Below, one piece after another: positions 4,862 to 61,071 of a stretch of DNA of 64,000 nucleotides (the first letter of the stretch is position 1; each line of letters opens with the position of its first letter). The translations under genes were made by a program, and so were the position numbers. This stretch comes from Xylona heveae TC161 (lineage: Eukaryota; Ascomycota; Xylonomycetes; Xylonales; Xylonaceae), in NCBI RefSeq assembly GCF_001619985.1, contig NW_017264203.1, positions 868,001 through 932,000 on the forward strand, given 5' to 3'. The notes under the pieces were generated by a model. The model made no database searches. It saw nothing but the letters and a program-made list of their open reading frames with translations, and was not told the DNA's origin.

Positions 4862-6740
4862 TTACTTTTTCGCCTTCTTGGAAGCACTCCCGCTTTCTAC
4901 TTCTTCTTCTCCTTGAGCCCCGTGGCCGTTCTCCCCGCCGCTGCCGCCCTCTACTTGACCTTCAGGAGCAGAAGAGGAAGACGAAGGGAGAGACCGCTTC
5001 TTTTTCCGTACCATGCCGGTGAGATCCCGCGCGGAGGCGGAGGCGGCGGTGACGCGGGCGTGTTGCTCGGCGGCAGACTCGCCCAGGACGGCGCCAAGGA
5101 TGCCGGTCAGCGGGTCGGCGTCTGTGGGATCGGGTGCGCCGGCGGGGCCAGAGCCGCCAGAGCGGAGTAAGTCTCCAGAGGAAGAGAGAGAAATGGGTGG
5201 TTGGCGGAGGTCTTGGAGCTGTATTGAGCGGGATGGAAGTGTTAGTGACTTGGCGTTTATGTACGAGGTACCTTACCCAAATACTAAGGTAGGTGGTAGA
5301 TAGATAGGAGGTAGGTCGAGTAGAACAATATAGGGATCGACAGACTCTGGATTGGAAAGAAAAAGAAAAGAAAAAGGAAAGAAAAAGGAAAGAAAAGAAA
5401 GAAAAGAAAGAAAAGAAAGAAACAAAAAACCCCCCAAAACGAAAAATGGCAAAGAAAAGAAGAAAGAAAAGAATAAAAGAAATAACAAATAACAAGGGGG
5501 ATATAAAGCAGTGAGATAACCTTGTAATAGAATACAGGATACGTACACGTTGCTCCATTTCTTGAATCATGTCCTTGACATCGGCAATGCCGCGTTTCAG
5601 CTTCTCCTTTTCCGCGGGCGAGGTGTCGTCCGACCTGAGAGAGGCTTCCTCCTTTTTGACGCGCAGACGGCAGCTCTCAATGGCGGCTTCCATCTCTTTG
5701 GCGGCGTCCTCGCGCATTGCCATGTCGACTTGCTGCGCCTCTTCGCCCGTCGAATGGGCAGCGTGATTATTGTCGTCATCAGCCGCAGGAGCAGGGGCAG
5801 TCACAGACGCAAATTCCAGTGCGAGGGCAAGTTTGAAATGCGCTTCGGCCAAGAGACTTGACTCTGGCGGAAACAGTTCCCGTTTCAGATCCAGCGCTGC
5901 GCGGGAATCTGTCACGGCGTCTGTAAACCGTTCGTTTTCGAGCGAGATCTCGGCCTGTAGATCATGTGTATCTGCCAGTCTTTCTTTGATTTGCTTGACT
6001 TCCTCGGACTCTGGCTCTTGCTCTCCTATATCTTTGCCCTTGCCCTTGCCCTTGTCTTTGCTTTCGTCTGTTTGATCCGCTGCTGCTGCTGCACCGCCGT
6101 CTTCTTTTATTGCTTCGATTTTCCGTAGTAAAAGGACACGCGCAAGGTCAAGGATCTCGTACGCAGTAGCGAAATCGTCGTCCTCTGCGTCAGCTTCGGC
6201 GTCGGCCTCGCCATCGGCGTCTTCGTCCTCTTCGCCATCTTCCGCATCGCTCTCGTCGCTGTCCCAGTTTTCGTCACCGGTAAATTGAAAGTATGGCTTG
6301 TTTGCTGTTGTAGACGACGCGGAATCCCGCTGGGGTGGTTGCTCTTGATGCAGTCCGTCCTTTTCTTCAACAACCTTTGTCACGATTTCCTCTGCAACTT
6401 TTTGGGCCTCGGAGGATGGCGCAACCGCATCTTGTGCTGCCGCAGATGCGGCTGCGCTGCTCTTCTTCTTCTTTGGCTTCGCGCTCTCGTTTGAGGGCTT
6501 TTCTCCGGCTACTTTGCCGCCCAAGACGTTGCTGTTTGCTACTCCGACGTGATAGAGACATCGTCCGTAAGCGTATAGCAGGTCAGCATTCTCTGGCGCC
6601 ATCTCGCCATTCAGCTCGGCTTGGAGCGCTGTCGCTTCAGAGTACAACTCCGCCGCTGCATCGTAATTTTTTAATGAGTATTGTAAGCTGGCTTGTGCGA
6701 TGAGCTCTGCAAGCTGGCCTTGTTCGGCAGCTTCGGCCAT
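4862..6740 (-). CDS. NASP/Sim3/Hif1-family histone H3 chaperone
   Basis: Two exons, 6740-5547 and 5218-4862, encode about 516 residues. The 328-base intron has a GTACGT donor, a CACTAAC branch point and a CAG acceptor, and is filled with AAAG-type repeats. The N-terminus (about 13-60) matches the first SHNi-TPR motif; an acidic run (about 156-189, rich in D and E) interrupts the TPR array as in NASP; further helices follow to about 400. Exon 2 begins LQDLR and ends with basic KKKR and KKAKK stretches that look like nuclear localisation signals. The family binds H3 or H3-H4 and delivers them to chromatin, including CENP-A in fission yeast. It is divergent from DPB2 across a 375-base promoter with ACGCGT boxes. 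Without splicing the frame would read into intron sequence. Confidence 0.9.
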
Positions 6741-7115
6741 GGTGAATCTAATAGATGCGAAAGACGTAGGATCTGAGGATATGGTGAAGAGAGTATTTAG
6801 TAGAAGGTCAGATCAAAAGGTTCAGGGAAGAACAAGAGTTTCTGATGTAGACCTGGAAAGGATTTCTGGTTTGTTTTGTGGCTGTCTTGATTGCTGGTAG
6901 AAATTCATTATTGAGCCGCAAGCGTCATGAACATCAATCTACGCGAGACGCGTTCGCGAAATCTGGTCGGCAACCACTTTACGCGTCTTCCCAGCGCAAC
7001 TATTATTGACGCACGTCGCATGGTCAACAACAGGCCAAAGGAGCATAGAATCTACCTACAATTCGATCAAGGCCCCAATTATATGCCGGTGAACACTTGA
7101 AAGCTTGAGGGCAAA
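6741..7115. promoter_or_regulatory. Bidirectional S-phase promoter with MCB-like boxes
   Basis: The region separates two divergent replication and chromatin genes. It contains ACGCGA at 6941, ACGCGT at 6948-6953 running into the palindrome TTCGCGAA at 6953-6960, and a second ACGCGT at 6981-6986. ACGCGT is the MluI cell-cycle box bound by MBF-type (Mbp1/Swi6, Res/Cdc10) factors in fungi, and TTCGCG resembles E2F/SBF-type sites. The sites are directly visible; G1/S regulation of both genes is inferred from position and target identity. Confidence 0.6.
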
Positions 7116-10104: not shown

Positions 10105-10920
10105 CTATGGCTTTATCGGCTCATCATTCATCAACTTGAGCATCAATTCGGTGAATGACCCATTCGGGTTCATCAGCTGAGCTTGCGGGCTGACAAAGTT
10201 ATCCGCGACATGCTCCATGCATCCGAAAAAGCCATACTCAAACACCCACGGCGTCTTGTCCATCCAGTTTGCCAGCTGGGCAGTGAAGTGGTACACTTCA
10301 TTCTTATTTCTCGAGATGCTCGCGATTTCGGATACGATGATCGGTTGGTGGGGATGCTTGTGGTGCATTTCTTCAATGTACTTGATCGCATCGTCGCCGT
10401 TGGTGCCATAATAATGGAGACCAAGATAATCTGGCGGGTGCGCCTGCACGCGATTCATAAAGTCCTCGATCCATGCCCGGCCAGCTCCGTCATCTGCGCA
10501 GGACGGACTCACGAGCTTTTTGCCCTTTTGCTGGCGCAAGGGCAGCATCTGCTTCACCCAAGCATCTGCTGCCTGCTCGGGGCTGACACCGGCACGTTCA
10601 GGCTCGTTGAAGAAATGGATGATATGTTCGGTTGTCTTTTCAATGTTCTCCCAGTCTTGGCCACCGAGTTGACCCGTGGTGCGCACCATGGGCCTGAAGG
10701 GCAACCGGCCTTTGAGCTCGGGAGGTACCCATGTGTTCCAATTACTGCAGGAATGAATGGGCCCATGGAAATTGACCTTATCCATTGCCCAAGGGCAATT
10801 CTGGGTGTTTGTCCAATCCCACAAGAGGCACCGCTTGTGGACGTTGACTTGTTTGTCTGCAGCATTTGCGGGGCTTGCCTCGTTCGCATGCTCGACATGG
10901 TTGACTGGGTTTGATGCCAT
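10105..10920 (-). CDS. GH128-like beta-1,3-glucanase (glycosyl hydrolase catalytic core)
   Basis: A single exon encodes 271 residues. It matches the fungal glycosyl-hydrolase catalytic-core family (GH128, Asl1-like TIM barrel): CLLWDWTNT opens the first strand, FFNEPE (Glu106 as likely acid/base) and IIVSEIAS (Glu198 as likely nucleophile) are the two catalytic stretches, and LGLHYYGTN and WVFEYGFFG are conserved barrel strands. No signal peptide is visible in the first 30 residues, which are polar, so a cytosolic or cell-wall-associated protein exported otherwise is possible. The family cleaves beta-1,3-glucan; the exact substrate is not shown by sequence. A TATATAAA box lies about 165 bases upstream, suggesting strong or regulated transcription. 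Confidence 0.85.
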   Translation of the reverse strand: MASNPVNHVEHANEASPANAADKQVNVHKRCLLWDWTNTQNCPWAMDKVNFHGPIHSCSNWNTWVPPELKGRLPFRPMVRTTGQLGGQDWENIEKTTEHIIHFFNEPERAGVSPEQAADAWVKQMLPLRQQKGKKLVSPSCADDGAGRAWIEDFMNRVQAHPPDYLGLHYYGTNGDDAIKYIEEMHHKHPHQPIIVSEIASISRNKNEVYHFTAQLANWMDKTPWVFEYGFFGCMEHVADNFVSPQAQLMNPNGSFTELMLKLMNDEPIKP

Positions 10921-11081
10921 CGTGGACGAATAAGCAAAAAGAAGAATGAGATCACCTTTTGGACAAGTTTTTAGATATGTTTAAAAGGCAGCGAATTTAG
11001 CATAAATATTCCAAGAGATGCTGTGATAGATAAAGGGGGCAATTGGCAAAGGGCGCAGTAGAAGTGCTGCATCTTTTTAAA

Positions 11082-12589: not shown

Positions 12590-14769
12590 ATGCACAACAT
12601 CAACGTCTTCAACAAGTCTCACCACGAGCAGAGCTTCGAAGTCCACGGCTGGAACAATAATCATAACATTACTGTCAAGCCTGGCGAAACTCATGCCATT
12701 GCAGCACCGGATCACACCTCTGGCGCCATTATTGCCCTGCATGACGGTCACGAGTGTGAGCAGGCAGAAATCACAAAGGACGGATACATGGGTGAGTTGG
12801 CATCTGATAACCTTTTGCCTCCTCGTTATGTTGTTTCTATCTGATATACCCTATTCCGTGCTTTTCATCGTCTTATAACGTAACACTGACTGACTGTTAT
12901 AGGAAACGACTTTATCGATCTCAGCAATATCATGGGTGCAGGCGGAAACATGATTGTGCAACAGGCCGGAGATCCTTCGACTCGCAAGGGTGACCCCCTC
13001 TTCATGCAGCATATGAACAAGGCATGGCACGACGCCGATGCTGCGACCAAGAAGTCTCTGCATGATTGTGTGTTTACCAATCAAGAGGGCACAGTTACCC
13101 GCATTGGCCCCATCAAAGATAATCCTGGGTTGGAAAAGCTTGTTCGTACTTTTGCCAATGGCAAAACGTACATTGGTGTTGGTGCCTGGGGTGGAAGTCC
13201 TGGAAACAAGTCGGACAACGATCAGGTATGCATTTATACCATTCCTTTTATTTCTATCGAAGAATTATCCAGCAATTCCATCGTGAAATCAAGATGCTCA
13301 CATTTGTCCGTTAGAGCTCCGCCGCGCATGGCGACAAGAATATTCTGGTTGTATACAATGACGGCGATGCCACGCCCACCCAACCGCCACACCTGGCGCA
13401 CCGTCCTCAGGAAAAGCTGGTTGAGCATGAGGAAGGCCCGCAGCCATTTGAAGCTCCAGGATCCTCTGGTCCTGGAACGGGCTTCCAAGCGCAAGATCTG
13501 GCGATCCCTCACGGCGCTTCTACAAATGGCAATGTAAACGCGTCTGCCAATGGCAGCGCTGGGGGCCATCCTCAGCAATCAGGAGATCACCAAGAACAAC
13601 AGCAGTCCAATCAGCAAGGAGAGCCAATGCAGCTATTCGACCAGCACGGACAACCTGTGCATCTCCAGCAATTTAACCAACAGCAACCTGCAAACCACCA
13701 GGAACAGCACGGAGATAAGCAGGAACAGCACCAGCAAGAGCCACACAAGCAGGGCGATGAACAACCCGATGATAAGACCGACCATACATCCGATGCTTCC
13801 CAGCAACGCACGGCCATCCACGCCGCCATTAGCGGGCCCGGCGTGATGCTGCACAACCGCTCCTCCAAGCCCGAAACGTACTTTTTCTTCGACAATTACT
13901 GGAACGGCAACGGGACTGCCGGGGCCAACTTTGACCATCCCATGAAATCCGTGCATCTCGCTCCGCGCATGTGCAAATTCGTCAGTCTGCCCGAGAGCTT
14001 CAAGGGCCGTGTCCAGCGCGGCAACATCCAACCCGCCACGTGGGTTGAATTCCAGGTCAAAGCGAGCAACGACGGCGCCGCGCACGGCGACATCTCGCTC
14101 GAGCAAGGCTGCGATGGAGCTGCAACCATCAGCTCGACGGATGGGACGAATCGCTCGAATGGCTTCACTCAGGACATTATCAAGAACGCGCCTCCCGCGG
14201 CGGTCGTAGAAAGGACCGAACATAACGGGTCGAGTATGTTCTCTTTTCGTTTACGTACCCTCTTTTTGCTTTCTCTGATACTCTTTATTATTATCATTTC
14301 ACTTCCCTGTATCACTTTTGTCGTCATCGTTTTGTTTCTCTTTTTGCCGTTTCTTATCCTCCCCTTGCTCTTGCTCCTTTATGGGTGAGCTTCCCTCTCT
14401 CCCCTTTGCACTACATCCATATCCTCTCACCCTTTCCTTTTCGCTTTTCCCCCTTGTCCATCCATCTTCCTCCTCCTCCTCCTCCTCCTCCTTCTTCTCT
14501 ACTTCTCAGCATGTTGGCGGAGGTATTTGGAGACCACAACTACCCAGATCTCAACCTCCTTAAAACGAGTTCAAATTAGCTAACTCTCATACGCTCCAGA
14601 AACAAAATGCATCGCCTCCACAATGGGCAACTGGTCCGCCGGCCCGAACCACGCCGCGGCAGAGTACGAGAAGCGCGTCGTCGGCCAGAAGAAGGCCTAC
14701 ATTGCCGGCGGAACGGGCACGGATGATGTGGCCAGTCACAATATGTGTCTGCGAGTGGACTTTTACTAA
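12590..14769 (+). CDS. Unrecognised protein with two related beta-rich domains and a Gln-rich linker
   Basis: Four exons, 12590-12791, 12903-13225, 13315-14233 and 14600-14769, give about 537 residues with consistent phases; the last intron is unusually long (366 bases) and could hide a small exon. The N-terminal domain (about 1-195) and C-terminal domain (about 330-537) look like copies of one fold. NVFNKS pairs with VMLHNRS, DFIDLSNIMGAGG with HGDISLEQGCDGAA, and KTYIGVGAWGG with KAYIAGGTGTDD, each copy ending in a hydrophobic strand (ILVVYNDGD, CLRVDFY). The DISL/G pattern is faintly thaumatin-like, but I do not claim the family. A linker of Gln, His, Asn and Gly (about 225-320) joins them. 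No signal peptide or membrane segment is seen, so a cytosolic protein is likely. Function unknown. Confidence 0.7.
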
Positions 14770-15736: not shown

Positions 15737-18107
15737 TCAAAGAGCTACTCCACGGTACTGAGTATCTTGATAATGAGATGGATATTGTCCTAGAGGAGCA
15801 CCTCTACTCTGGGGGACTCCATCCGAGGTATCACTTTGATGACTTTCGACTTTGCCAAAGGCTGCAGCGGACGCGGCCAGGTGCTCAGAAGAAGGCGTTT
15901 TATCGCGACCGGCAAGCGGGGTATAACCTGAGCGGCGCTTGCTGGAGAGAGGATAGGACGAAACCATGGGCGCTTTGAGCTGCGAAGAGTCCGTGTACGA
16001 GTTGGGGTCAATGAGCAACGAGTTGCGGGCATCAAGGGGTGTGAGGTCGTCAAGGTCACGATTGAGTTTTTCTGCAAGAGATTATTGTTAGCATGGTGGA
16101 ACATTAAACAATGGATGATGGGGGCATATGCAACATACCAGCAGCCTTGCGACGCTTGCGGTGGGGATTCTCGCGACAGCAGTTGATAATGGCATTGACT
16201 GCAATCAAGATTGCTAGCGTGCCTGTCAACACTGACTGGACAGCAATGAGCACAACTCCCGTAATCGTCTTTGTCGATTGCGAAAAGCCCAGTTCCTCAA
16301 CAAATAACAAAATGCAGGCTACCGAGAGAACTCGCACAATCTGGATGAAAATGTTGATCCAGTTGCCAGATGCGCGCTGGTAAGGGCGACACCAGATAAG
16401 CAATCCCAACATGAGGGACTCAATAATGAGCTGCGCCACCGTTTGACTCAAGCCATGACCATCACCGGCAGCAAGCACGCATCCCTTGGCAAACATGTAA
16501 AGGATACTCGGGATAAAAAGCCACCAGAGACCCTTTCGATACTGGTCGTAAAACAAGCTGTACTTGCGCCAGGTTTCCTTGTCTTCAAACAATTTGCCTG
16601 CGTCGCCTTGGGCTTTTCTGTATCGGCGTGCCAAGATCCAGATGCGAGAGGTGAAGAAGCCCAAAACGGCGGTAAAAATCAAGAGGGTCACGGCTGCCAG
16701 CAGTTTAGCAGCCCACGAATCGCCGTGCGTGAACTGGTAGATGCAATAGAGCACCCACATGCCATAAAGCAAGAGGATCAAATTGGTAATGGTCTTGGCA
16801 AGCAGCCACCAGTAACGTTTGCGAAAGCTTGTCAGCTTCTTCGGAAAGGTCCCAAAGAGTGCCCAGGCTTCCAGAATGACCTTTAAGAGGAGAATGCCAA
16901 CAGTGATCGCAGCTATGATAATGCAGAAGACCAGGAGAACAGTCATAAAGGTGTTCGCTTGCGGGATTGTCAGCTGCTCAACGTAGCCTTGGACTCCGTG
17001 CACAAGGTGCATTGGGGAGTTGTCTGAATCGCTGCTGTTGCTGGTCCCTCCATTCGCAGAAGTCTGAGTGCCATTGACATTTGTCGTGACACCACGCGCA
17101 GCAAGAGAGATGCCGTCCCGAAGAAGCTCCAGGCCACGACGGGTTTTGCTTGATGATGAAGAAGAAGAACTCGAATCCGAGAAAATGAGTGTGGCATTCT
17201 TCAGGTATGACACGTTATCTTCTGTCAAATTGCCGCCGGTTCTCTGACGGAACGTATCGATGGAGACTTGCATAGAGTTCCATGAAATCAATCCACCGCT
17301 GAAGCCAAAATTGCTTGCAAAGCTGCGATACACCGAGGGATAGTTAACACTGTGCATGCCATTCATGGCCATTGACTGGAACCATCCCATGACTTCGACA
17401 AAGCTAGGACTCATTGTGGGCGCGCCAACGCCTGCTCCACCAGCCGCTGCGCCGGCAGCCGAGAGGCCGGAAAGAACGAATGCAGCGCCAGCAACGCCGG
17501 CGGCAATATACGGTACGGCCGGTACCTGCGCAGATTTGCCATTGGTTACAGTTGATTGAATACAGGCAAGATCGTTTCCACCATCAACGGGGCTCAACTG
17601 CAATTTTGCGGCACCGTCAAGGTCAGGTATCTGAAAGGCAATTGCAGGGATCATATCCGCATATTGAGATGGAATATCTTGTGAACCGGAAGCTGCAAAG
17701 TTGCCGACCGGTACTGGAAAAAGTCTGGTATCAGCAACACTTTCTTTTTTGGATGACAGGTAACTTGGTGCTTGTTAAGATGAAGCATCATACTAACCTG
17801 GACATAGCTGTTCCACGTGGGTATTCGCATCGCAAGGATTAAATTCTTTTTGATAGACTTGCTTTCCGTAGGCGGAGATGCTCAGGGAAGCGGTGACGTT
17901 CTGGGTCTTGGCGCTGGAGCCAGCCACATCGAAGGTGACCACATTGGCTGAACGATCATACTGTACGTTCATCTTCTCCACGGTGATGTCAGAGTCGGAG
18001 AGACAAGAAGTGAAACCAGATGTCTTGAGCACATCGCCCGCTAGAACCCTGACCGGCAGGATTCCTACAGCGAGGAGTGAAAGAACGGGGGTATTAAAGA
18101 GTCTCAT
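15737..18107 (-). CDS. TRP/flavin-carrier-like membrane protein (ML-like plus TRP domains)
   Basis: Three exons, 18107-17798, 17713-16139 and 16071-15737, encode about 739 residues. Residues 1-23 form a signal peptide ending VLA. Residues about 24-190 form the ML-like lipid-binding domain, with paired cysteines (FTSCLSDSD, FNPCDAN, LCPG). A Ser-rich and Gly/Ala-rich luminal region follows, then about eight or nine hydrophobic segments making the TRP-like domain, with WWLLAKTITNLILL, the aromatic IWILARRYRK and LLIWCRPYQR near the middle. The C-terminal tail is cytosolic and Ser-rich. Fungal relatives (Flc1-3, Pkd2) act in ER or plasma-membrane calcium and haem/FAD handling and wall integrity; which role applies here cannot be read from sequence. 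The introns have GTTAGT/CAG and GTATGT/GCAG boundaries and good branch points. Confidence 0.88.
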
Positions 18108-20723: not shown

Positions 20724-22263
20724 TTATACCAATACAAGCTTGTCATAGTGTTTGATAAAAGATTCGACTGTTCCAACGAAGCTATCCAGCTCTTCCTCAG
20801 TAGTACCCAGAGTCAAAGCTACCATCCCTCTGCGCACAAACCAAAAGCCTTTCTCAACGCACCAAAACCAGAACAAGTCCCGTAGTTCTATAATGCTTTC
20901 TTCTTCCAGCTGAATGCCAGTTTTCTTTGCCGCTTCGCCAGACGGTATGAAATGAATTGTCATGACGGCTCCAATTCCTGTCACAACCATTTTCGTCCCA
21001 CGCATCGCATGGTTCAGGCGCTCGCGAAACCCATCTCCCATGGCATTGAGCTTGACATTCACGTCGGGCGTGTAAACATGAGCAAGTCCCGCGTATCCAG
21101 CAGCCAGCGTCAGCGTATTATTGTTGAAGGTACCCGAATGACTAGGGTTAGAGCCAATGCGTGGGTCGTAGGTTGACATCAACTCCTCTTTGCCTCCAAA
21201 CGCGCCAAATGGTAAGCCACCGCCTATGTATTTTCCCATGGTGGTGAGGTCCGGGGATAAAGAAAGGCTGGACTGGAGCCCGCCCGGGGAAAGACGCGAT
21301 GTCATCACCTCGTCTAAAATGAAAACAACTCCTTTCTAAGATGCACAGAAAAAAATGTCAAGGATTAGCTTATAATTTCTGACAACACTGAGCATTTGGA
21401 GTTGACAAGACCCACCTCTTTCGCACAAGTTTGAATAGTTTGGAGAAATTGAAGCTCTCCTGGTATGCAACCTCCAGCACCCTGCATTGCTTCTACAAGA
21501 ACTGCAGCAAGGTCGGGAGTGTTTTCGATGAGGGCCTTGACTCCCTGGGCATCGTTGTATCTTCCAACGATCCAATCCTGGGGGTCAACGGTATTTGTCG
21601 CAACTCCATGTGCAAAAGACAATACCCCACCGTGATATCCTCCTTCAAAAACGAGGACCTTTCTTTTCCGTGTGAAGTATCGGGCAACACTAAGCGCATA
21701 CAGATTCGCTTCCGTGCCCGAATTACAGAAACGTATTCTTTCCACGGACGGGAATCTTTCTATTATTAACTTTGCAAGCTGAGTCTCTAGTAAATTCGAG
21801 GCGCCTAGTGAGAGACCAACATTTTCTAACGTCGAGGTAATCGCTTCACGAATAACTGAGTGGGAGTGTCCGTAGAGACCCGCTGTGAGCTCCCCAGCTA
21901 GATCAAGATACCTGTCAATTTTAGATGATATCTCAAAGATATTAAGTATTGATTTCCCACTTACTCGTTTTCATCGATATCAAAGAGTCGATTTCCCACT
22001 CCTCTCTTCATGCAGATAGGAAATGGCTCCGTGTAAAGTACAGAGCGTGTGTTTCCACCGGGCAGAACTGTGGCCGCGTTTTCATGCTGCTGTCTTGATT
22101 TTGGTAATCTCTCGGAGAATTGCTCTCGCGCAGCGCCTAAAATCTCATCTAATGCTTGAACATTTTTGTTGGCCATGATTGGCAGAGAAATAACAACAAC
22201 AAGAATTCCAGTCGCGAACCACAGGAGTTTTTTGGCCTTTGGGGTTCCAATTAGAATTGTCAA
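20724..22263 (-). CDS. Class-III PLP aminotransferase, glutamate-1-semialdehyde-aminomutase-like, membrane anchored
   Basis: Three exons, 22263-21965, 21911-21416 and 21335-20724, encode about 468 residues. Residues about 12-31 form one hydrophobic segment after a basic start, reading as a membrane anchor. The rest is a fold-type I, class-III aminotransferase: the substrate entrance LPGGNTRSV, the phosphate-binding CNSGTEANL, FEGGYHGG, ILDEVMTSR (Asp273 for the pyridine nitrogen) and MGKYIGGGLPFGA with Lys300 as the Schiff-base lysine. The nearest named relatives are glutamate-1-semialdehyde 2,1-aminomutases. Fungi make 5-aminolevulinate by the Shemin route, so haem synthesis is unlikely and the true substrate is unknown. 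The 53-base first intron and the others keep phase, rejoining as DENEYLDLAG and AKEKGVVFILDE. Confidence 0.88.
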
Positions 22264-23060
22264 ATAACAATGAGGGGGCTATGAATGCAGCAGATAGGCA
22301 GGACTACATCAATCAAACTTTTAAATTTCACAAATTTTGTTGTCGTAATCATATTGATTGGTAACATTTCAATGTCCTGATAAGAACGGAGACGGACACC
22401 CACATCAATCTAGTATTGGAGTCATATGTAGATGGTCCAGGTCATCGTCTTATCAGATGGTGGAGACTTTGAAGCAAGTCTCGGGGACTTTGCCTACTTC
22501 GGAGAGCGTACCGAGCGTGTAGAGCTCTATCTTTCTTTTGTGGAGCGAAAGATTATCAGCGTATCGAGATAATCTGGCCAAGAAGGCAATGAAGCCAAGC
22601 GAAGTCAGTTCCTTCATGCCCACAAGGCAATCAATCAAAAGGTTTACAAGAAAATTGTGTGTCAGAACATGTAAAACACACCGCCGCCAATCAAGATTTT
22701 GGGTGTAGTCGACCACTTGGACAATTTTTTGTGGGCGCCACCAGTGGGCACGTGGTTCAGAATCAATCCATTAAGAGTTCTAATTGGACGCCATGCCCGG
22801 TTAATATAGCTCTTTGATTATGTAAGCCAACGGCAGCGGAGAATCCGAACTTCCTCAGCGGGTTATTGCCTCTCCATCTGCTGCCATCTCCGTTCACTTC
22901 GATCACCACAAGCACAACGATCACAATATCAGCTCAATCTAGCGACCCGGTCGACATTCTCCTCCGCGAAAAGCTCGTTCTGACTCTTGAACTCTCGCAA
23001 ACCCCTCACATCAACACATAAACCTATCACCGAGATAGCAACCGTGGCATCCGGACGATC
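22264..23060. other. Divergent promoter of aminotransferase and antizyme genes
   Basis: No gene is evident. The final 220 bases before 23061 are rich in C, A and T with few G, typical of a fungal leader for the antizyme mRNA. A 7-bp perfect inverted repeat, GAGACTT/AAGTCTC, lies at about 22468-22487. Confidence 0.55.
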
Positions 23061-23967
23061 ATGGCGAAAATGACCATAAGTAAACCTAAAAGTAGTAGTA
23101 GTAGTAGTAGTCCTTACGCCCTCATGAAGGACTCTGCTGCGCGTCCCAACATCCTCGCTAGCTGCTACCGCGTCGATGTCTCCTCCGCCGTGATCTGCGG
23201 CTTTCACTACTCCTCTACCGGGGCTGGAGGTAAGTTGTTTACAGCGCTTCAACGATAGTCGTTGTGGTTACTTGAGCAAGTTCTGACATTATCATACAGG
23301 GGCAGAGTGGTGTTCCTGAGGTCAGCTCGGGTATACCATCTCCTCCAGCAAGTCCCCCACTTGCCGCATGCAATGCCAGCTACGAACAGGCTGGCATTAA
23401 AGGCCACGCGCGCAAAGTGGGGGCTGCGCACACTATCACGGAAGAGAGTGAGAGACTCTTCTGCGGGACTCTGCAGGCTGTTTTTCTTGGTGAGAGGGAA
23501 CAGTCTGCCGACTCGCTGGTGGTAGGTGCGCATACAAATGTGGCCAAGACCAATCGCCATGAGAGAAGCATAACAAGTTGGGTCGAAGTCTGGGATTATG
23601 CTGGGGGGACCCGGTTCCGAGGCTTTGTCGCCGGCGAGATCCATAGAAGCCTTTTTGTCTTCTTCGATGCTGATGCCATTGGTAAAGACCTGAAACAGGG
23701 GTATGTACTCGTTCTTTTACCATTTTGCAAAGTAATCTCCTCTAACCATTACTCAGTATGATGGCTCTCATTGAGCTTGCAGCAACGCCATCCTTTGATT
23801 GCTCTAATTTGATAATTTGCCTGGATCGGCAAATTGATCGAACGGAATTGCAGGCGCTGATAAGAGATCTTGGTTGGGTGGGATTCGAGTTGACCACCCT
23901 CGATCGTTGGGCAGGGTGTCCTGACGTAACAAGTCAGCGATGGCTATTGCTTGAGATGGAAGTATGA
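23061..23967 (+). CDS. Ornithine decarboxylase antizyme (needs +1 frameshift)
   Basis: Exons are 23061-23229, 23300-23700 and 23757-23967. The first frame runs 62 codons and stops at UGA 23317-23319 inside UGG-UGU-UCC-UGA, the classic antizyme shift site. Moving +1 after UCC opens a second frame reading SEVSSGIPSPPASPPLAA, then RFRGFVAGE, SLFVFFDADAIGKDLKQG and a C-terminal LIICLDRQ...LIRDLGWVGFELTTL, ending WLLLEMEV. This order and length (about 259 residues) match fungal antizymes. The protein binds ornithine decarboxylase monomers, targets them to the proteasome and blocks polyamine uptake; polyamines raise frameshifting, closing a feedback loop. A seven-codon AGT run codes Ser in the first frame. 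Both introns have strong sites (GTAAGT/ACAG, GTATGT/CAG). The frame change is almost certainly programmed, not damage. Confidence 0.95.
23314..23319 (+). promoter_or_regulatory. Programmed +1 ribosomal frameshift site UCC-UGA
   Basis: Zero-frame codons here are GAG-UGG-UGU-UCC-UGA. Slow decoding of UGA with UCC in the P site lets the ribosome skip the U at 23317 and read GAG next. The upstream UGG-UGU-UCC context closely matches known antizyme sites (UGG-UGC-UCC-UGA in vertebrates), and the acceptor frame stays open for 197 codons across the next intron. Confidence 0.93.
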
Positions 23968-25461
23968 GAAATCTGCTTTTGATGGCTCGGGAAGATCTCC
24001 TAATCGAATATTAATTCGTTCTGTTCACCTTACGGCTCTTCAAATGTTTTATTCGATTCTTCGCCATTAATTCAGCTGCGGCTGTCATTATTACACATGA
24101 TAATTTTTTCATCTGTTCGCTGCACAAATAATTTACCTAGCTTTCCATACAAAGTGTATATCAAAAAGCGAGCAAATACAATCGGAAATATTTTGAATGC
24201 AGGAAGGCTCGGACTCTGGTATGAATATCTGTGAGATTGTTTCGCTCTTCAATGGTTCCTACAATGAGGCTGCCTATGGGCAAAGGGCAGATCGATGCCC
24301 ATGGTTCACTTTTAACTCTCCAAGTACATTTTGATAATGACTACCCTTATGGTTCCTTTCTTGACTAGAGTACTTGATAGCATCGCTGGATGCACCAGAG
24401 GATGAGAACATCTTCCGCCACTCCATGGGCTTCAATAAAAAAAAAGAAATAAAATCCACAAATTGTTCAGCATATTGCTTTTTGTCCCACACAATAAATA
24501 TTTCTTCCCTTGTTCTGAATATTTTCTACTGGGACGGTCCAGACCCAAAAGGCAAGGGAGGGAAGTGGGGTCTTCTAACCAGGATTATACTCCGGGACCT
24601 TTCCTAATCCGGAGCGCACCCGCTCTAATCGATAAGGGCGGGCAACGCGAAAGGCACGTCACATGCAGTCCCAAAAGCAGTCCAAGTGCTCTCTGAGGTG
24701 AGCTGGACCTCCTTTGCATATTGCCCCCGCCTTTGCAACCCAAGCTTAGGGCCCCCCCGGTTCTTTTGCCTAATGCTTCCTATCTGGCCCGAAGTTATGC
24801 ATCATCACATCTCCACAGCTCGGGCGGGCCCTCTGAGGTTTTCTGATTCGTGCTTGGACGGCAGTTCTAATAATCATTGTCATCCCTTAGCAAATAGCAA
24901 AAGAGCAAGGAGTTCCAAGGGTCGCGTCACCGTATTATCATACGACAGCAGTCTATCGAGGACTGGGTTTATTGTTTTATAGTGAAACAGAATTGCGCCA
25001 TCTTATTTATACGCCTTTATCTTTAGTCTTCAAGTCCACCTTTCCTATAACTTTTATACCCTATCCTGACCCACCTTGACATCGTTTGGCAACTGCTCTT
25101 GATCTTGCAATAATTACTCCCTTGACATATATTTCTATTTCTTTCAGCTAAAGTAGCACGAACACTTGCGCATACTTTCAAAGTGGCCGCATACTACTTC
25201 GAAGCTTTATACACCATTATTTGGAATCGCCTTTGGCCACGCGACACTGCGACACACTGCAGCTTTGACGCAAGGGAGCGAACAGACGCTTTCAACTGCT
25301 GGCATACCGCACATTAATCTACCAGTCGAGAAGCACACCGTCTTGATTTTGCTTTCTATTCGGCACAAGCCAACACTTTTTACTCATACGAAGTGGCCTG
25401 AAAAGGAAACACTTTCCTTCGCGAGCATATCACAGCCCTAATACAAAACACAATCGCACAG
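23968..25461. other. Intergenic region and long leader of the Yippee-like gene
   Basis: No gene is supported. From about 24960 to 25461 the sequence becomes C/T-rich and resembles a long leader. A 91-codon open frame at 25166-25441 ends 21 bases before the Yippee-like start and could be an upstream frame if that leader is real; it shows no domain. A GGGCCCCCCCGG block lies near 24750. Confidence 0.5.
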
Positions 25462-26241
25462 ATGCCTTTCCACAAGGTCACTCTCCCGCCGTCCGTTTTC
25501 CCAATCTACTTGCTCCCGCCACTCCCTTTCCGACGACGGCGCAAGACTTCTACCGACTCAAACGCATCTACCGACTCTACCGTATCCTCTGTAATCGACG
25601 GCACCTCATCCTCCACGAGTGGCGGCGATGCCGCTTCCCCCGAGAATTTCTTGTCGGGACATACTTCGCGCCTTCGGTGCGCCAGATGCGCCACAGATCT
25701 GTGCCTGACCTCGCAGATTATTAGCAAGGGCTTTACCGGGCGACACGGACGCGCATATCTCGTCAGCGGGTCTACCAGCCGGACAGACATGGCCATCTCG
25801 CTGACCAGTAGCGTTGGAGGCAGCAGCAACACGACCGTTTCGCTGCCCAACACTACCACCCACAAGCCCACGCCGCGACAACTGGTCACGGGCGCGCACA
25901 CAGTCAGCGACATTAGCTGCGCGTTTTGCGGCGCCGTGCTTGGCTGGAAATATGTCGCCGCAGAGGACGAGAGCCAGCGGTACAAAGTGGGGAAATTCAT
26001 CCTTGAAACACGCAGAGTGTGTACTGCGTCGTGTTGGGAAGAGGAGTACGATTATCAGACCGCAGATGACGGGGCCCTTGCAGTTGCAGCAAACGCCGCA
26101 GGGGCTGTGCCACCCATGAAGAAAGATGAGGAGATTGAATTCGACAGTCAAGACGAGGATGAATGTGAAGATCTGTTTGCAGGCGTTTGGTCCTCGGCGC
26201 TGGCAGCGAGACGGAGGAAGGGCAAGAAGTTTGAAAGATGA
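25462..26241 (+). CDS. Yippee/Mis18-like zinc-binding protein
   Basis: A single exon encodes 259 residues. After a basic, Ser/Thr-rich N-terminus (about 24-60), LRCARCATDL supplies Cys73 and Cys76 and ISCAFCGAVLGWKYVAAED supplies Cys153 and Cys156, the two Cys pairs of the Yippee zinc fold. GRHGRAYL and GAHTVSDI are the expected conserved strands, and YKVGKFILE closes the fold. A roughly 30-residue Ser/Thr/Asn insert separates the two halves, and an acidic tail (EEIEFDSQDEDE) ends in basic RRRKGKK. Relatives include yeast Moh1 and animal YPEL proteins, seen at spindle poles, nuclei or in stationary-phase survival; the molecular activity is not established. Confidence 0.85.
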   Translation: MPFHKVTLPPSVFPIYLLPPLPFRRRRKTSTDSNASTDSTVSSVIDGTSSSTSGGDAASPENFLSGHTSRLRCARCATDLCLTSQIISKGFTGRHGRAYLVSGSTSRTDMAISLTSSVGGSSNTTVSLPNTTTHKPTPRQLVTGAHTVSDISCAFCGAVLGWKYVAAEDESQRYKVGKFILETRRVCTASCWEEEYDYQTADDGALAVAANAAGAVPPMKKDEEIEFDSQDEDECEDLFAGVWSSALAARRRKGKKFER

Positions 26242-37812: not shown

Positions 37813-40323
37813 ATGCAGTACACTCCGTTTGCTTCCGACATCGAGCTACCTTTCTATACCTCGCTAGCTTCCCACAAGATCAACCATGATAAACTCGATG
37901 ACTCGGCAAGGAAGCTACTGGGGCTTTATGAGATCAAGCCTACCGACGCACCTGAAGCATCTTGTCGCATGCAAATTCGTGGAAATGCTCTGACCAGTGA
38001 TGAGTGCGTGCACTTTGTGTGCGATGAGCAAATCGCCTGAACTCTTTGCTAACTTTGTCAGAGTTCCGGCGGCTGCGTGTCGTGCGGAGGGCATTATTAA
38101 GAATGTGAATACGATCGAAGAATACAAGAATTTGGATAAGGCTACGGTTCTGCATCGTGCTGGTCGGATCGTAAGTTGGGGTTTAAGTGGTCTTTCATGA
38201 CTGAGGGTTTCTTGCTGATATGCCTCCATCAGATCTGGGAGGCCATCAATGACGGAACCATTTACTCATGTCCATCCCTTCTAGCAGCTTTCTCGGTCAT
38301 CTCATTTGCAGACCTTAAGCGATACAGATTCACGTATTGGTTTGCCTTCCCAGCTCTGCATTCTGACCCGCCCTGGAAGCTTGACGATTCGCGTCCAACC
38401 GTGTCCGGTCTGTCGAAGCAAGAAACGCAAGCGCTGGTTGAGAAGGTTCAAACGTGGAGATATAGCGTTGATACCCGCCAGCATGGATTTTTCCTCGCGA
38501 AAAAGGTGCGAGTCAGTTCTCAGGGTGAGTTAAATGAGAATGCGGAGGATGGAGAAGACAACCACGAGCATTTTCGTTCAAGCTCACCAGGGGCGTCAGG
38601 GGAGGAGGCGAACTATGTCTGGGCGGTAGCGCCCCTGGGAGGCTATGAAAGTGGCTTCTTCAAGGATGTCGAGCCCCACAACCGCTTCGTCTGCTTCGCG
38701 GATCCTTCCACATATGCAAAGAACCCGGGCTGGATGCTCCGCAACCTGCTGGTGCTCATCCAGAGACGATGGCAATGCGACCGCGTCCAGATACTCTGCT
38801 ACAGAGATGTACAATCCCGTCGCGACGATCCAAAGAGCATAATTCTCAATCTCATGACCGAAGGGACGCCGGCGGCGTTGGGGGATTCTCACAAAATTCA
38901 CAACAGATTACCGCCTATGCCAAAGGTCACAGGCTGGGAACGCAACAAAGAGGGGAAGCTACTGAGCAAGATTGTCCATTTGGCCGAATACATGGACCCG
39001 CAGCGGTACGCCCAGACTCAACTTACTACTCTTTCATCATTGTGAATGTCGTCTGACGGAATGCTCTTTAGGCTTGCGGACCAATCAGTAGACCTCAATC
39101 TGAAATTAATGAGGTGGAGAATAGCACCAAACTTGGATCTTGAGAAGATCAAGAACACGAAATGCCTGTTACTCGGCGCGGGTACTCTAGGAAGTTATGT
39201 ATCGCGCAATCTCTTAGTATGTATTTTGGATATGACAATTCAGATGGAATAAGTCTAATGTATTATAGGGTTGGGGGGTACGCAAGGTTACATTTGTCGA
39301 TAATGCAAATGTGTCGTTTTCAAATCCCGTCCGCCAGCCGTTATTTGATTTCAAGGACTGTCTGCAGGGTGGGGCCAAAAAGGCATACCGCGCTTCTGAA
39401 GCTCTTTTGGAGATTTATCCTGGCGTGGACTCATCTGGACACGTCTTTTCTGTGCCCATGGCGGGCCACCCTATCACTGATGACAAGAAGACACGTAACG
39501 ATTTTGATTTGTTGCAGTATTTAATTGAGCATCACGATGTCATTTTCCTTCTTATGGACACGCGTGAGAGCCGATGGCTTCCAACGGTAATGGCAAAGGC
39601 GGCTGGAAAGATTGTCATGAATGCAGCATTGGGATTTGACACGTTTGTCGTCATGCGACATGGAATGAAGTTGGCACACAACAGAGACCAAGAGCTAGGT
39701 TGCTATTTTTGCAACGACGTGGTTGCACCTCAAGATGTATGGCATAAATCTCCCTATATCCTGGAGTTTCCGCGCTAACTTGCTTTGGCAGTCTATCAAG
39801 GATCAAACACTCGATCAACAGTGTACTGTCACTCGTCCGGGCATTGCTGCTATCGCCTCCGCCATGCTTGTCGAATTACTTGTTTCTATTCTCCAACATC
39901 CAGATGGCGGTGCTGCGCCCGCTCCCAACTCTACAGACCAAGACCGAGGGGAGCATCCTCTTGGCCTTGTTCCTCACCAGATTCGCGGATTCTTGTCCAA
40001 TTTTCAAAATATGACGATCAAAGGTCGCAGCTACGACTGCTGCAGTGCTTGCTCTGATAGGGTGGTTGACGCCTACCGAAAAGGCGGCTTTGAATTTGTC
40101 CAGCGTGCGTTGAATGAGAAAGGTTACGTTGAGGAATTGAGCGGCCTAGCCGAGGTACGGTTTCTCTTTTTTCAGAAATATGTACAAACCTTCAATCTTC
40201 TAACGATTATTGATTTTTTAGGTCCAACGGGCGGCAGAAGCGGCGGCCGCAGAGATTGAATGGGACGAGAATGAAATCGGCGATGACGGAGACGAAGACG
40301 AAGGGGAGGGACAGCTCATCTAA
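37813..40323 (+). CDS. ATG7: Autophagy E1-like activating enzyme
   Basis: Seven exons, 37813-38003, 38062-38170, 38233-39005, 39072-39216, 39269-39736, 39792-40154 and 40222-40323, encode about 716 residues with consistent phases. The N-terminal domain starts [21 protein letters not shown]. The adenylation domain has [14 protein letters not shown] (Gly393-Gly398), [29 protein letters not shown] and [20 protein letters not shown] holds the catalytic Cys573. The C-terminal ECTD region contains SYDCCSACS and an acidic, Glu-rich tail. Atg7 activates Atg8 and Atg12 and passes them to Atg3 and Atg10, driving autophagosome formation in the cytosol. Introns are 49-62 bases, many with a CTAAC-type branch point. 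Confidence 0.97.
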
Positions 40324-58392: not shown

Positions 58393-61071
58393 ATGAGTTG
58401 TACGCACGTTAACGCTGCAGGTTTGTGCGCTCTTCCTTATCGTATTTGTGATAGAAGCTCATTATTATTCAGAACTTAGGCCTCCAGGGCCTAACCAGGC
58501 AGTGTACCGCGAGGACTGTACGCAGTGTTTTGATTCGATTGTGAGCTGCTTTCATGAAGTTGCCAAGTACTACACAGAGATACTGACATGTTCTTCAAGG
58601 ACGATCCTACAGGTCTTAATGTATGTCTCTACTGTTTCAACGGTGGGTGCACGGCAGAACGGCGCCACGCCTTATTACATTATGAAACAATCAAACACCC
58701 TCTCGTGCTCAATGTCAAGAGGACGCGAAAACATGTCAAGGTAAGTCTTGAAGCCTTGCTTTAGCCGGTTATGTCTTTGCTTGGGATTTATCGAGCTCAA
58801 GCTGATCCGCGTACTTGCAAACCTAGCGTGATGAACCTCCACAGAAGATAACAAAGCTCGCTATCGCCGCGGAAACAGAAGCCGATCGCTACGATACTCA
58901 GCTGCAAGTGAACTGCTACGAGTGCGGCGTGAGTGACATAGATCAAGCTCAGGGCAGACTTCCTGCAGTGGTAGATGGTGTTATGAAAGCCATGACCTTT
59001 TCGCGTCAGGAAGAGGTCAAAGCGTGGGAGCAGGAAATCACACCGTGCGAGCATACTCTATGCCTGCAGCAGGAGCAGTCTAGGCAAATCGCTTCTCAAG
59101 GTCTGAAAGTCATTGCATTATCTTGCTAAAGAGGGGATGCTGACATTCTTTGTTTCAAGATTTGGGTCATTGTTCGATGTGTGATCTCAAGGAGAATCTT
59201 TGGCTTTGCTTGCAGTGCGGCAAGCTTGGATGCGGACGGGCTCAATTTGGTGGCGTTGGCGGCAATTCGCATGGCCTTGCTCATGCAGATGCCACAAATC
59301 ATCCGGTCGCAGTAAAATTAGGGTCCATCACGCCAGAAGGGACTGCCGACATTTACTGTTACGCCTGCAATGATGAACGAACGGATCCAGAGCTCGCTGC
59401 ACATCTGGCCCACTGGGGCATCAATATTGCTGAACGAGAAAAAACTGAGAAGAGTCTGACGGAAATGCAAATAGAGCAGAACCTGCGATGGGAGTTCTCC
59501 ATGACAACAGAGGATGGGAAGGAATTGAAGCCGGTATTTGGGCCAGGCTTGACGGGCTTGAAGAATCTTGGAAACAGCTGCTATCTTGCCAGCATTCTTC
59601 AATGTCTATTCGCATTGCCGGTATTCAGGGAAAGATACTTTTCCCATGTCGATCTCGCTCCGGCCGCGTCTAAGCCCGCTGAAGACCTGGAAACTCAATT
59701 GCGTAAATTGGCCGACGGTCTCTTGTCTGGACGCTATTCTCGCCCCGATTCGGATGTGATTGCATCAGAACACTCTGCTGAGGTTCCCTATCAAAAAGGA
59801 TTGGCTCCGGCCATGCTCAAGCACTTGATTGGCAGGGGTCATGAAGAATTCTCGACGATGAGGCAGCAAGATGCTTTTGAGTTGTTGATGCATCTTTTCA
59901 AGCTGATTACCCGTTCCTCCCACCCAAAACCTTTGAACGATCCGATTCAGGATTTCCGCTTTGTGATGGAACAGCGTCTACAATGTCTGACCTGCAAAAA
60001 GGTGAGATATCGAACCGACGAAGTGGAAAATCTGAGTATTCCGGTCCCGGCTCGTAAAGTCTCAAGAGGGGCAGAGCAGGACACTGAGGGAAAGGATGAG
60101 TACGAGTCAGTATCCTTAAAGGAATGCCTCGACACCTTCACTGCCGAGGAAATTGTCGAGTTCAAGTGCCCCTCATGTGGCAGCCAAGACGGTGTCAGCA
60201 AACGTTCACTTTTCAAAACCTTTCCCGCTGTGCTGGCGGTCAATGCCCGCCGTTTTCAGTTGGTTAACTGGGTACCCACCAAACTTGACATACCAGTCGT
60301 GGTTAATGATGAACCATTTGAACTCGACGAATACTTATCAAAGGGACTTCAAGCAGGGGAGGAAGCATTACCCGAGGATGCTGACGATAAAAGCGGCGCC
60401 TCCAGCTTCACTCCAAATGAGGCTGCACTATCCCAGCTTGAAGCCATGGGGTTTCCCCGTGTTCGTTGTGAAAAGGCTCTTCATGCGACTGGCAATACTG
60501 ATGCGGAGGTTGCAATGAACTGGCTCTTTGAACACATGGAGGATCCTGACATTGATCAACCGCTTGACCTTGGTGGCTCTACCGGGGCTTCCGTGAATCC
60601 CGAGCAGGTCGACATGCTAGGAAGCATGGGATTCAGTGCGCCGCAGGCTCGCAAGGCTCTTAAGGAGACAGGCGGGAATGTGGAGCGAGCGGTCGAATGG
60701 CTATTCAGTCATCCCGATGACCAGGGTGATTTTGGCGATGGAGCAGGTTCTTCGGAAGAGCCAACAGGTGCTCTAGAGAAGCCGCTCGCCGGTAGTGGGG
60801 ACCTTCCCGCCAGGTTTCAACTTCAGTCAATCGTCTGCCACAAGGGCGGGTCAATTCACGCAGGGTAGGTGACCTTGAGGCTTTCTATAGATCATGTAAC
60901 CATTGGGATGCTAATACTATCGCTAGACACTACGTTGCATTTATTCGCAAGGAGCTTCCGGATGAGATTGGCAAATCATGGGTATTGTTCAACGACGAAA
61001 AAGTCGTCAAGGCGGTTGATGTGGACGAGATGAAAAAATTTGCATATGTGTATTTCTTCCGGCGTATATGA
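58393..61071 (+). CDS. UBP14: Ubiquitin carboxyl-terminal hydrolase 14 (USP5/isopeptidase T family)
   Basis: Six exons, 58393-58424, 58480-58540, 58600-58740, 58827-59100, 59160-60864 and 60927-61071, encode about 785 residues. The N-terminal variant zinc finger includes YREDCTQCFDS and LNVCLYCFNGGC; the ZnF-UBP domain has HCSMCDLKENLWLCLQCGKLGCGRAQFGG and HPVAVKLG. The peptidase has NLGNSCYLASILQCLF (Cys310) and GGSIHAGHYVAFIRK (His box). Two UBA domains (about 595-715; LEAMGFPRVRCEKAL, LGSMGFSAPQARKAL) are inserted in it. The enzyme disassembles free ubiquitin chains from the unanchored end, recycling ubiquitin. The first two exons are short; GTGCGC at 58425 is the donor that keeps PPGPNQAVYRE in frame. 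Confidence 0.95.

Follow-up and report, generated by a model that had tools for sequence, protein, structure and literature searches.

The locus considered here raises the question of how a single protein comes to be read from two frames: an open frame that starts at an AUG and ends at a UGA, and an overlapping +1 frame that carries an antizyme domain. It lies within a 64,000-nt stretch of Xylona heveae TC161 (contig NW_017264203.1, forward strand), hereafter called the window, to which all positions refer unless a contig is named. The gene is an ordinary, well-formed fungal ornithine decarboxylase (ODC) antizyme, a sound but expected find, and judging from its sequence we consider it about 95% probable that +1 programmed ribosomal frameshifting at UCC-UGA is required for a functional product. 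Published antizymes are cited below from those passages of the respective articles that were covered in this analysis.

Reading of the exons (Table 1) confirmed the extent of the gene, 23061–23967, as given by the initial sequence-only reading. ORF1 consists of 62 codons in frame 0 and is terminated by UGA 23317–23319 in the context ...GAG-UGG-UGU-UCC-UGA, so that the frame does end inside UGG-UGU-UCC-UGA as had been described. Reading in the +1 frame resumes at GAG 23318, and skipping one base at the UGA gives a frameshifted spliced product of 259 aa. Counted from 23194, where the +1 frame opens, ORF2 overlaps ORF1 by 53 nt in the spliced mRNA, and it stays open to the stop at 23965–23967; ORF1 thus ends at a stop while the antizyme domain lies in the overlapping +1 frame. 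The sequence-only reading had placed two more introns after the shift, which proved wrong, as one lies upstream of the shift site and one downstream. It had also stated that the +1 frame immediately encodes SGIPS: the frame is indeed open, but it begins EVSSGIPSPP, with SGIPS only from the fourth codon. The start codon carries an A at −3 and a G at +4, and the genomic segment 22700–23060 contains only two AUGs (22793 and 22820), whose frames run for 3 codons and 1 codon. Near the N-terminus, exon 1 encodes a poly-Ser stretch of seven consecutive AGT codons (23091–23111), a microsatellite whose length may differ among strains.

Table 1. Positions of the antizyme gene, its predicted RNA structures and other genes named in the text (window positions unless a contig is given)
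Feature	Position	Strand	Basis
SHNi-TPR protein	4962–6812	−	Pfam
Glycosyl hydrolase (PF11790)	10105–10980	−	Pfam
TRP-channel family protein	16104–17774	−	Pfam
Antizyme gene, whole	23061–23967	+	exons inferred from sequence
Exon 1, start of ORF1 (AUG 23061)	23061–23229	+	read from sequence
Intron 1, 70 nt, 5' of shift site (GTAAGT...CTGAC...ATACAG)	23230–23299	+	sequence reading
Exon 2, final codons of ORF1, shift site, and +1-frame ORF2 carrying first part of antizyme domain	23300–23700	+	
Shift site UGG-UGU-UCC-UGA (P-site UCC 23314–23316, stop UGA 23317–23319)	23308–23319	+	
Hairpin around shift site, spliced mRNA, 23 bp	23223–23349	+	predicted fold
3' structure adjoining shift-site hairpin	23348–23427	+	predicted fold
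Intron 2, 56 nt, 3' of shift site (GTATGT...CTAAC...ACTCAG)	23701–23756	+	sequence reading
Exon 3, remaining antizyme domain, stop TGA 23965–23967	23757–23967	+	
ATG7, N-terminal part	38140–39045	+	Pfam
Ubiquitin hydrolase with zf-UBP and UBA domains	59144–60868	+	Pfam
ODC gene	contig C3: 2534662–2535285	−	only one found

A class III aminotransferase gene (PF00202, two open frames, 20724–21970, minus strand) diverges from the antizyme gene, and a gene for a Yippee/Mis18-domain protein (PF03226, E 2.9e-15, 25462–26241, plus strand) lies downstream of it. If the first exon of the aminotransferase is the frame 21961–22263, about 0.9 kb separate its start from that of the antizyme. Nine other frames of the window were searched against Pfam, four of which matched no family. 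Short introns and neighbours such as the ATG7 and TRP-channel matches (Table 1) give the genes a fungal look. Elsewhere in the window an open frame on the plus strand (13315–14388) contains a Gln/His-rich stretch, and the frame 12890–13534, which overlaps this locus, has no Pfam family.

The identity of the product is carried by its domain. The 259-aa product matches Pfam ODC_AZ (PF02100) over the entire profile (positions 1–114 of 114) with an E-value of 8.1e-42 and 142.2 bits, where the curated cut-off is 24.2 bits; both the assignment as ODC antizyme and the full domain in the +1 frame, as put forward in the sequence-only reading, were thereby upheld, and the similarity to antizymes by which it had proposed to check the +1 product is present. 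Each part of the domain is recognized separately: the open frame 23276–23758, which holds exon 2, covers profile positions 1–50 (E 8.5e-15, 55.1 bits) and the open frame of exon 3 covers positions 46–114 (E 1.3e-21, 77.1 bits). ORF1 alone matched no Pfam family. When the entire genome (24,276,669 bases in 17 contigs) was searched in six frames, PF02100 matched twice, both times in exons of this gene.

Rfam gave only two matches on 22800–24200, both far under the gathering scores (E 6.7 and 7.9), and no family matched in NCBIfam, a bacterial and archaeal library. Sequence searches of solved structures returned no antizyme up to E 1 (one match listed, E 0.23) or up to E 10 (12 listed); the structure matches at E ≤ 10 (best E 0.059) were HLA-type chains and the hypothetical protein AF1437, which we take as chance. 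Homologues were confirmed for none of 6 pattern matches in viral contigs and none of 94 in bacterial and archaeal contigs. Being viral and bacterial/archaeal, these two collections are silent on the distribution of antizymes among fungi, and since no homologue was found in them, conservation of the shift site was judged against published descriptions only.

Codon usage points to the same change of frame. Scored with a table trained on 5853 codons (15 hand-chosen stretches of neighbouring ORFs, all of which were used), the 62 codons of ORF1 favour frame 0 (+4.4 bits vs. −0.7 and −13.5), and the 197 codons of ORF2 favour the +1 frame (+20.6 bits vs. −24.4 and −30.1). The preference switches at the UGA, although it is small (0.07 bits per codon for ORF1 and 0.10 for ORF2). 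Taken separately, exon 3 is ambiguous, as several windows there score frame 0 at least as high as +1 despite the stops in frame 0.

A splice could in principle join the two frames and spare the ribosome the shift, and one candidate has consensus-like signals. Joining the donor at 23230 to an acceptor after 23348 would excise a 119-nt intron together with the UGA and give ...STGAG-ASPPLAA...; among 183 introns it alone has both a YAG acceptor and a donor of the form GTRNGY or GTNNG, and its acceptor, TCCTCCAG, is pyrimidine-rich. The 183 are all single introns obtained mechanically (GT, GC or AT-AC type, at least 30 nt, acceptor before 23480) that leave a continuous frame from the AUG at 23061. 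The proximal acceptor ATACAG, however, is the first AG past the branch-site-like CTGAC, just as intron 2 has CTAAC ahead of its acceptor, and inspection by eye found no CTRAY word in 23300–23348. Use of the distal acceptor would moreover remove exactly the motif typical of antizyme shift sites, whose presence would then be left to chance. On these sequence grounds the one consensus splice that avoids recoding looks weak, and we regard it as very improbable. Hardly credible at all is a +1 ORF that is initiated independently or survives as a pseudogene remnant: in the spliced mRNA the frame opens at 23194, and a non-AUG start is conceivable, but no AUG occurs in it between that point and 23758, so that internal AUG initiation would lose roughly the first 45 of the 114 profile positions; moreover, the domain is complete and lacks stops, and no second copy turned up in the genome.

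Frameshifting at the UGA is also the reading that agrees with the shift site as it is known from other antizymes. Frameshifting in this family is long established from yeasts to mammals, and the review passages covered describe a layout of two ORFs and UCC-UGA as the majority type, with UGG two codons 5' of it (PMC5009743); all three are found here. They further describe a Gly or Pro seven codons 5' of the shift as frequent (PMC5009743), a wording that does not make this residue a requirement; our gene has GCT (Ala) at codon −7, and Gly occupies −8, −6 and −5. The antizyme of Schizosaccharomyces pombe (SPA), likened here by its published table row and not by its full sequence, reads P A G G A in Table 2 of PMC5009743 against G A G G A at codons −8 to −4 of X. 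heveae, a difference of one letter. Because the row has four column labels for its five letters, the register is our reading: the A falls at −7 only if the row spans −8 to −4. Saccharomyces cerevisiae OAZ1 is likewise a +1 frameshift antizyme (PMC5349141), with GCG-UGA-C as its shift site (PMC5009743) in place of UCC-UGA. Among the filamentous ascomycetes, the antizymes of Emericella nidulans and Botryotinia fuckeliana are the same kind of gene, compared by description only; the covered part of PMC3432380 attributes their sequences to a paper of 2000 and states that neither species had been the subject of experiments. The present gene adds to the antizymes already described from filamentous ascomycetes, and +1 frameshifting was already known. 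Such genes were said in 2008 to be beyond recognition by standard pipelines, and a dedicated tool exists, according to the passages covered of PMC2375905; this agrees with the remark in the sequence-only reading that automated gene callers probably miss or split this gene.

By itself the motif is no proof. TGGTGYTCCTGA occurs at 12 exact places in the genome (24.3 Mb, both strands), compared with 5 for a reversed-pattern control, and at one place in the window. With only one of the 12 matches at the antizyme, we rejected rarity of the motif as an argument; since TGGTGYTCCTGA is not rare, the evidence is the domain match together with the change of frame. In the 3-kb loci taken for the 12 sites, the unspliced frame terminated by the UGA lacks an AUG in every case. 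The antizyme's own site fails this test because of intron 1, and the test therefore cannot exclude other recoded genes. A figure legend of PMC2375905 names the stop-codon T as the one base shared by all frameshift sites.

The least expected result is that two RNA structures are predicted at and 3' of the site in this one sequence; we treat these models as leads only. The first is a hairpin formed in the spliced mRNA, with a 5' arm made of 23223–23229 joined to 23300–23320 and a 3' arm at 23326–23349, which would place five of the six UCC-UGA bases in the apical stem. Its 60-nt window folds at −37.6 kcal/mol with z −5.2 against dinucleotide shuffles, ranking first among the 73 overlapping windows of the mRNA (the runner-up, starting 137 nt 5' of the UGG, has z −4.7), and none of 564 coding windows of neighbouring genes reached this energy or z. 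Pairing probabilities in a context of about 310 nt are 0.93–1.0. When codons were redrawn synonymously with the core fixed, 301 of 10,000 sequences were as stable; redrawing the downstream arm alone gave 580 of 10,000, and the core plus downstream alone 902 of 10,000. Since 301 of 10,000 synonymous sequences are equally stable, the encoded peptides explain much of the hairpin and we do not claim selection. Nor would it be a classical 3' stimulator, because it would already be unwound by the time a ribosome occupied the site. With few exceptions, the 3' stimulators known so far are located entirely 3' of the shift site (PMC5009743, passages covered), so this arrangement, if conserved, would be an unusual layout.

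The second lies further 3' and performs better in the synonymous test (10/6000 vs. 301/10,000). Its main stem pairs 23354–23367 with 23410–23423 and encloses a 9-bp hairpin (23372–23380 with 23390–23398). The 99-nt window, chosen after an earlier fold had revealed the structure, folds at −44.0 kcal/mol, a stability that 10 of 6000 synonymous sequences and none of 496 coding windows attained. The first 60 nt from 23318 are no more stable than shuffles (z −0.23), while 100 nt from 23318 give z −1.04 and the 147 nt at 23321–23467 give z −2.43. With its main stem about 35 nt past the UGA, the structure may act as a 3' stimulator. Antizymes of Coprinopsis cinerea and other Agaricomycetes also shift to +1 and have a putative 3' structure that would lie outside the ribosome (PMC4505036). 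According to the passages covered, theirs consists of two adjacent stem-loops from 19 nt downstream, as opposed to the more distant stem with an enclosed hairpin in X. heveae; the shift site is UUU-UGA and not UCC-UGA, and there is a nascent-peptide signal and an AAAU beside stem 1 (PMC4505036).

The 3' arm of the shift-site hairpin holds the IPSPP codons as well as the sole consensus-like alternative acceptor, and in unspliced RNA its predicted partner is the terminal part of exon 1 (probability 0.78–0.86). A coupling of splicing and recoding through this shared arm in such fungal genes is conceivable, although we consider it an unlikely proposal: the arm would be paired with exon 1 sequence before splicing and close over the shift site afterwards, and the closed hairpin would hide the frame-restoring acceptor and pace the ribosomes that approach the shift site. 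The titles and abstract openings listed in our literature search contain no description of a shift-site hairpin in ascomycete antizymes; Ivanov and Atkins 2007, reportedly the key survey, lies outside that scope.

Recoding at UCC-UGA would place the product in a regulatory circuit with ODC, whose gene is present. PF02784 (ODC) has one match in the genome, and the main ODC exon aligns with the ODC of 4ZGY (E 1.8e-103) and with human ODC 1D7K (E 2.1e-103). In the N-terminal part, reconstructed from two exons, 98 residues precede AVKCN, which is found at residue 67 of chain 2ON3, making the N-terminus about 30 residues longer than that of human ODC before the first conserved motif. At the other end, the frame in this two-exon reconstruction stops 7 residues past the aligned region, where chain 2ON3 runs 48 residues further. 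Because of the longer N-terminal part and the end soon after the conserved domain, the ODC of X. heveae probably carries an N-terminal degron, as yeast ODC does (PMC5349141, passages covered).

By analogy with the family, frameshifting is expected to occur in this gene and to respond to polyamines, and the product would inhibit ODC and target it for degradation. At high polyamine levels, more of the ribosomes that have UCC in their P site and face UGA in the A site would advance by one base; the shifted ribosomes would read GAG and continue through the +1 frame to produce antizyme, which would bind ODC monomers and deliver them to the proteasome without ubiquitin, so that polyamine synthesis is lowered. 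The fungus very probably has the usual antizyme–ODC feedback loop.

The antizyme family, whose frameshift lets the ribosome act as a sensor of polyamine level, gains a clean member for which the exon and shift positions are given exactly. The literature passages covered describe no antizyme cis-signals for filamentous ascomycetes, and the two predicted structures provide concrete candidate cis-signals for the antizyme of X. heveae.
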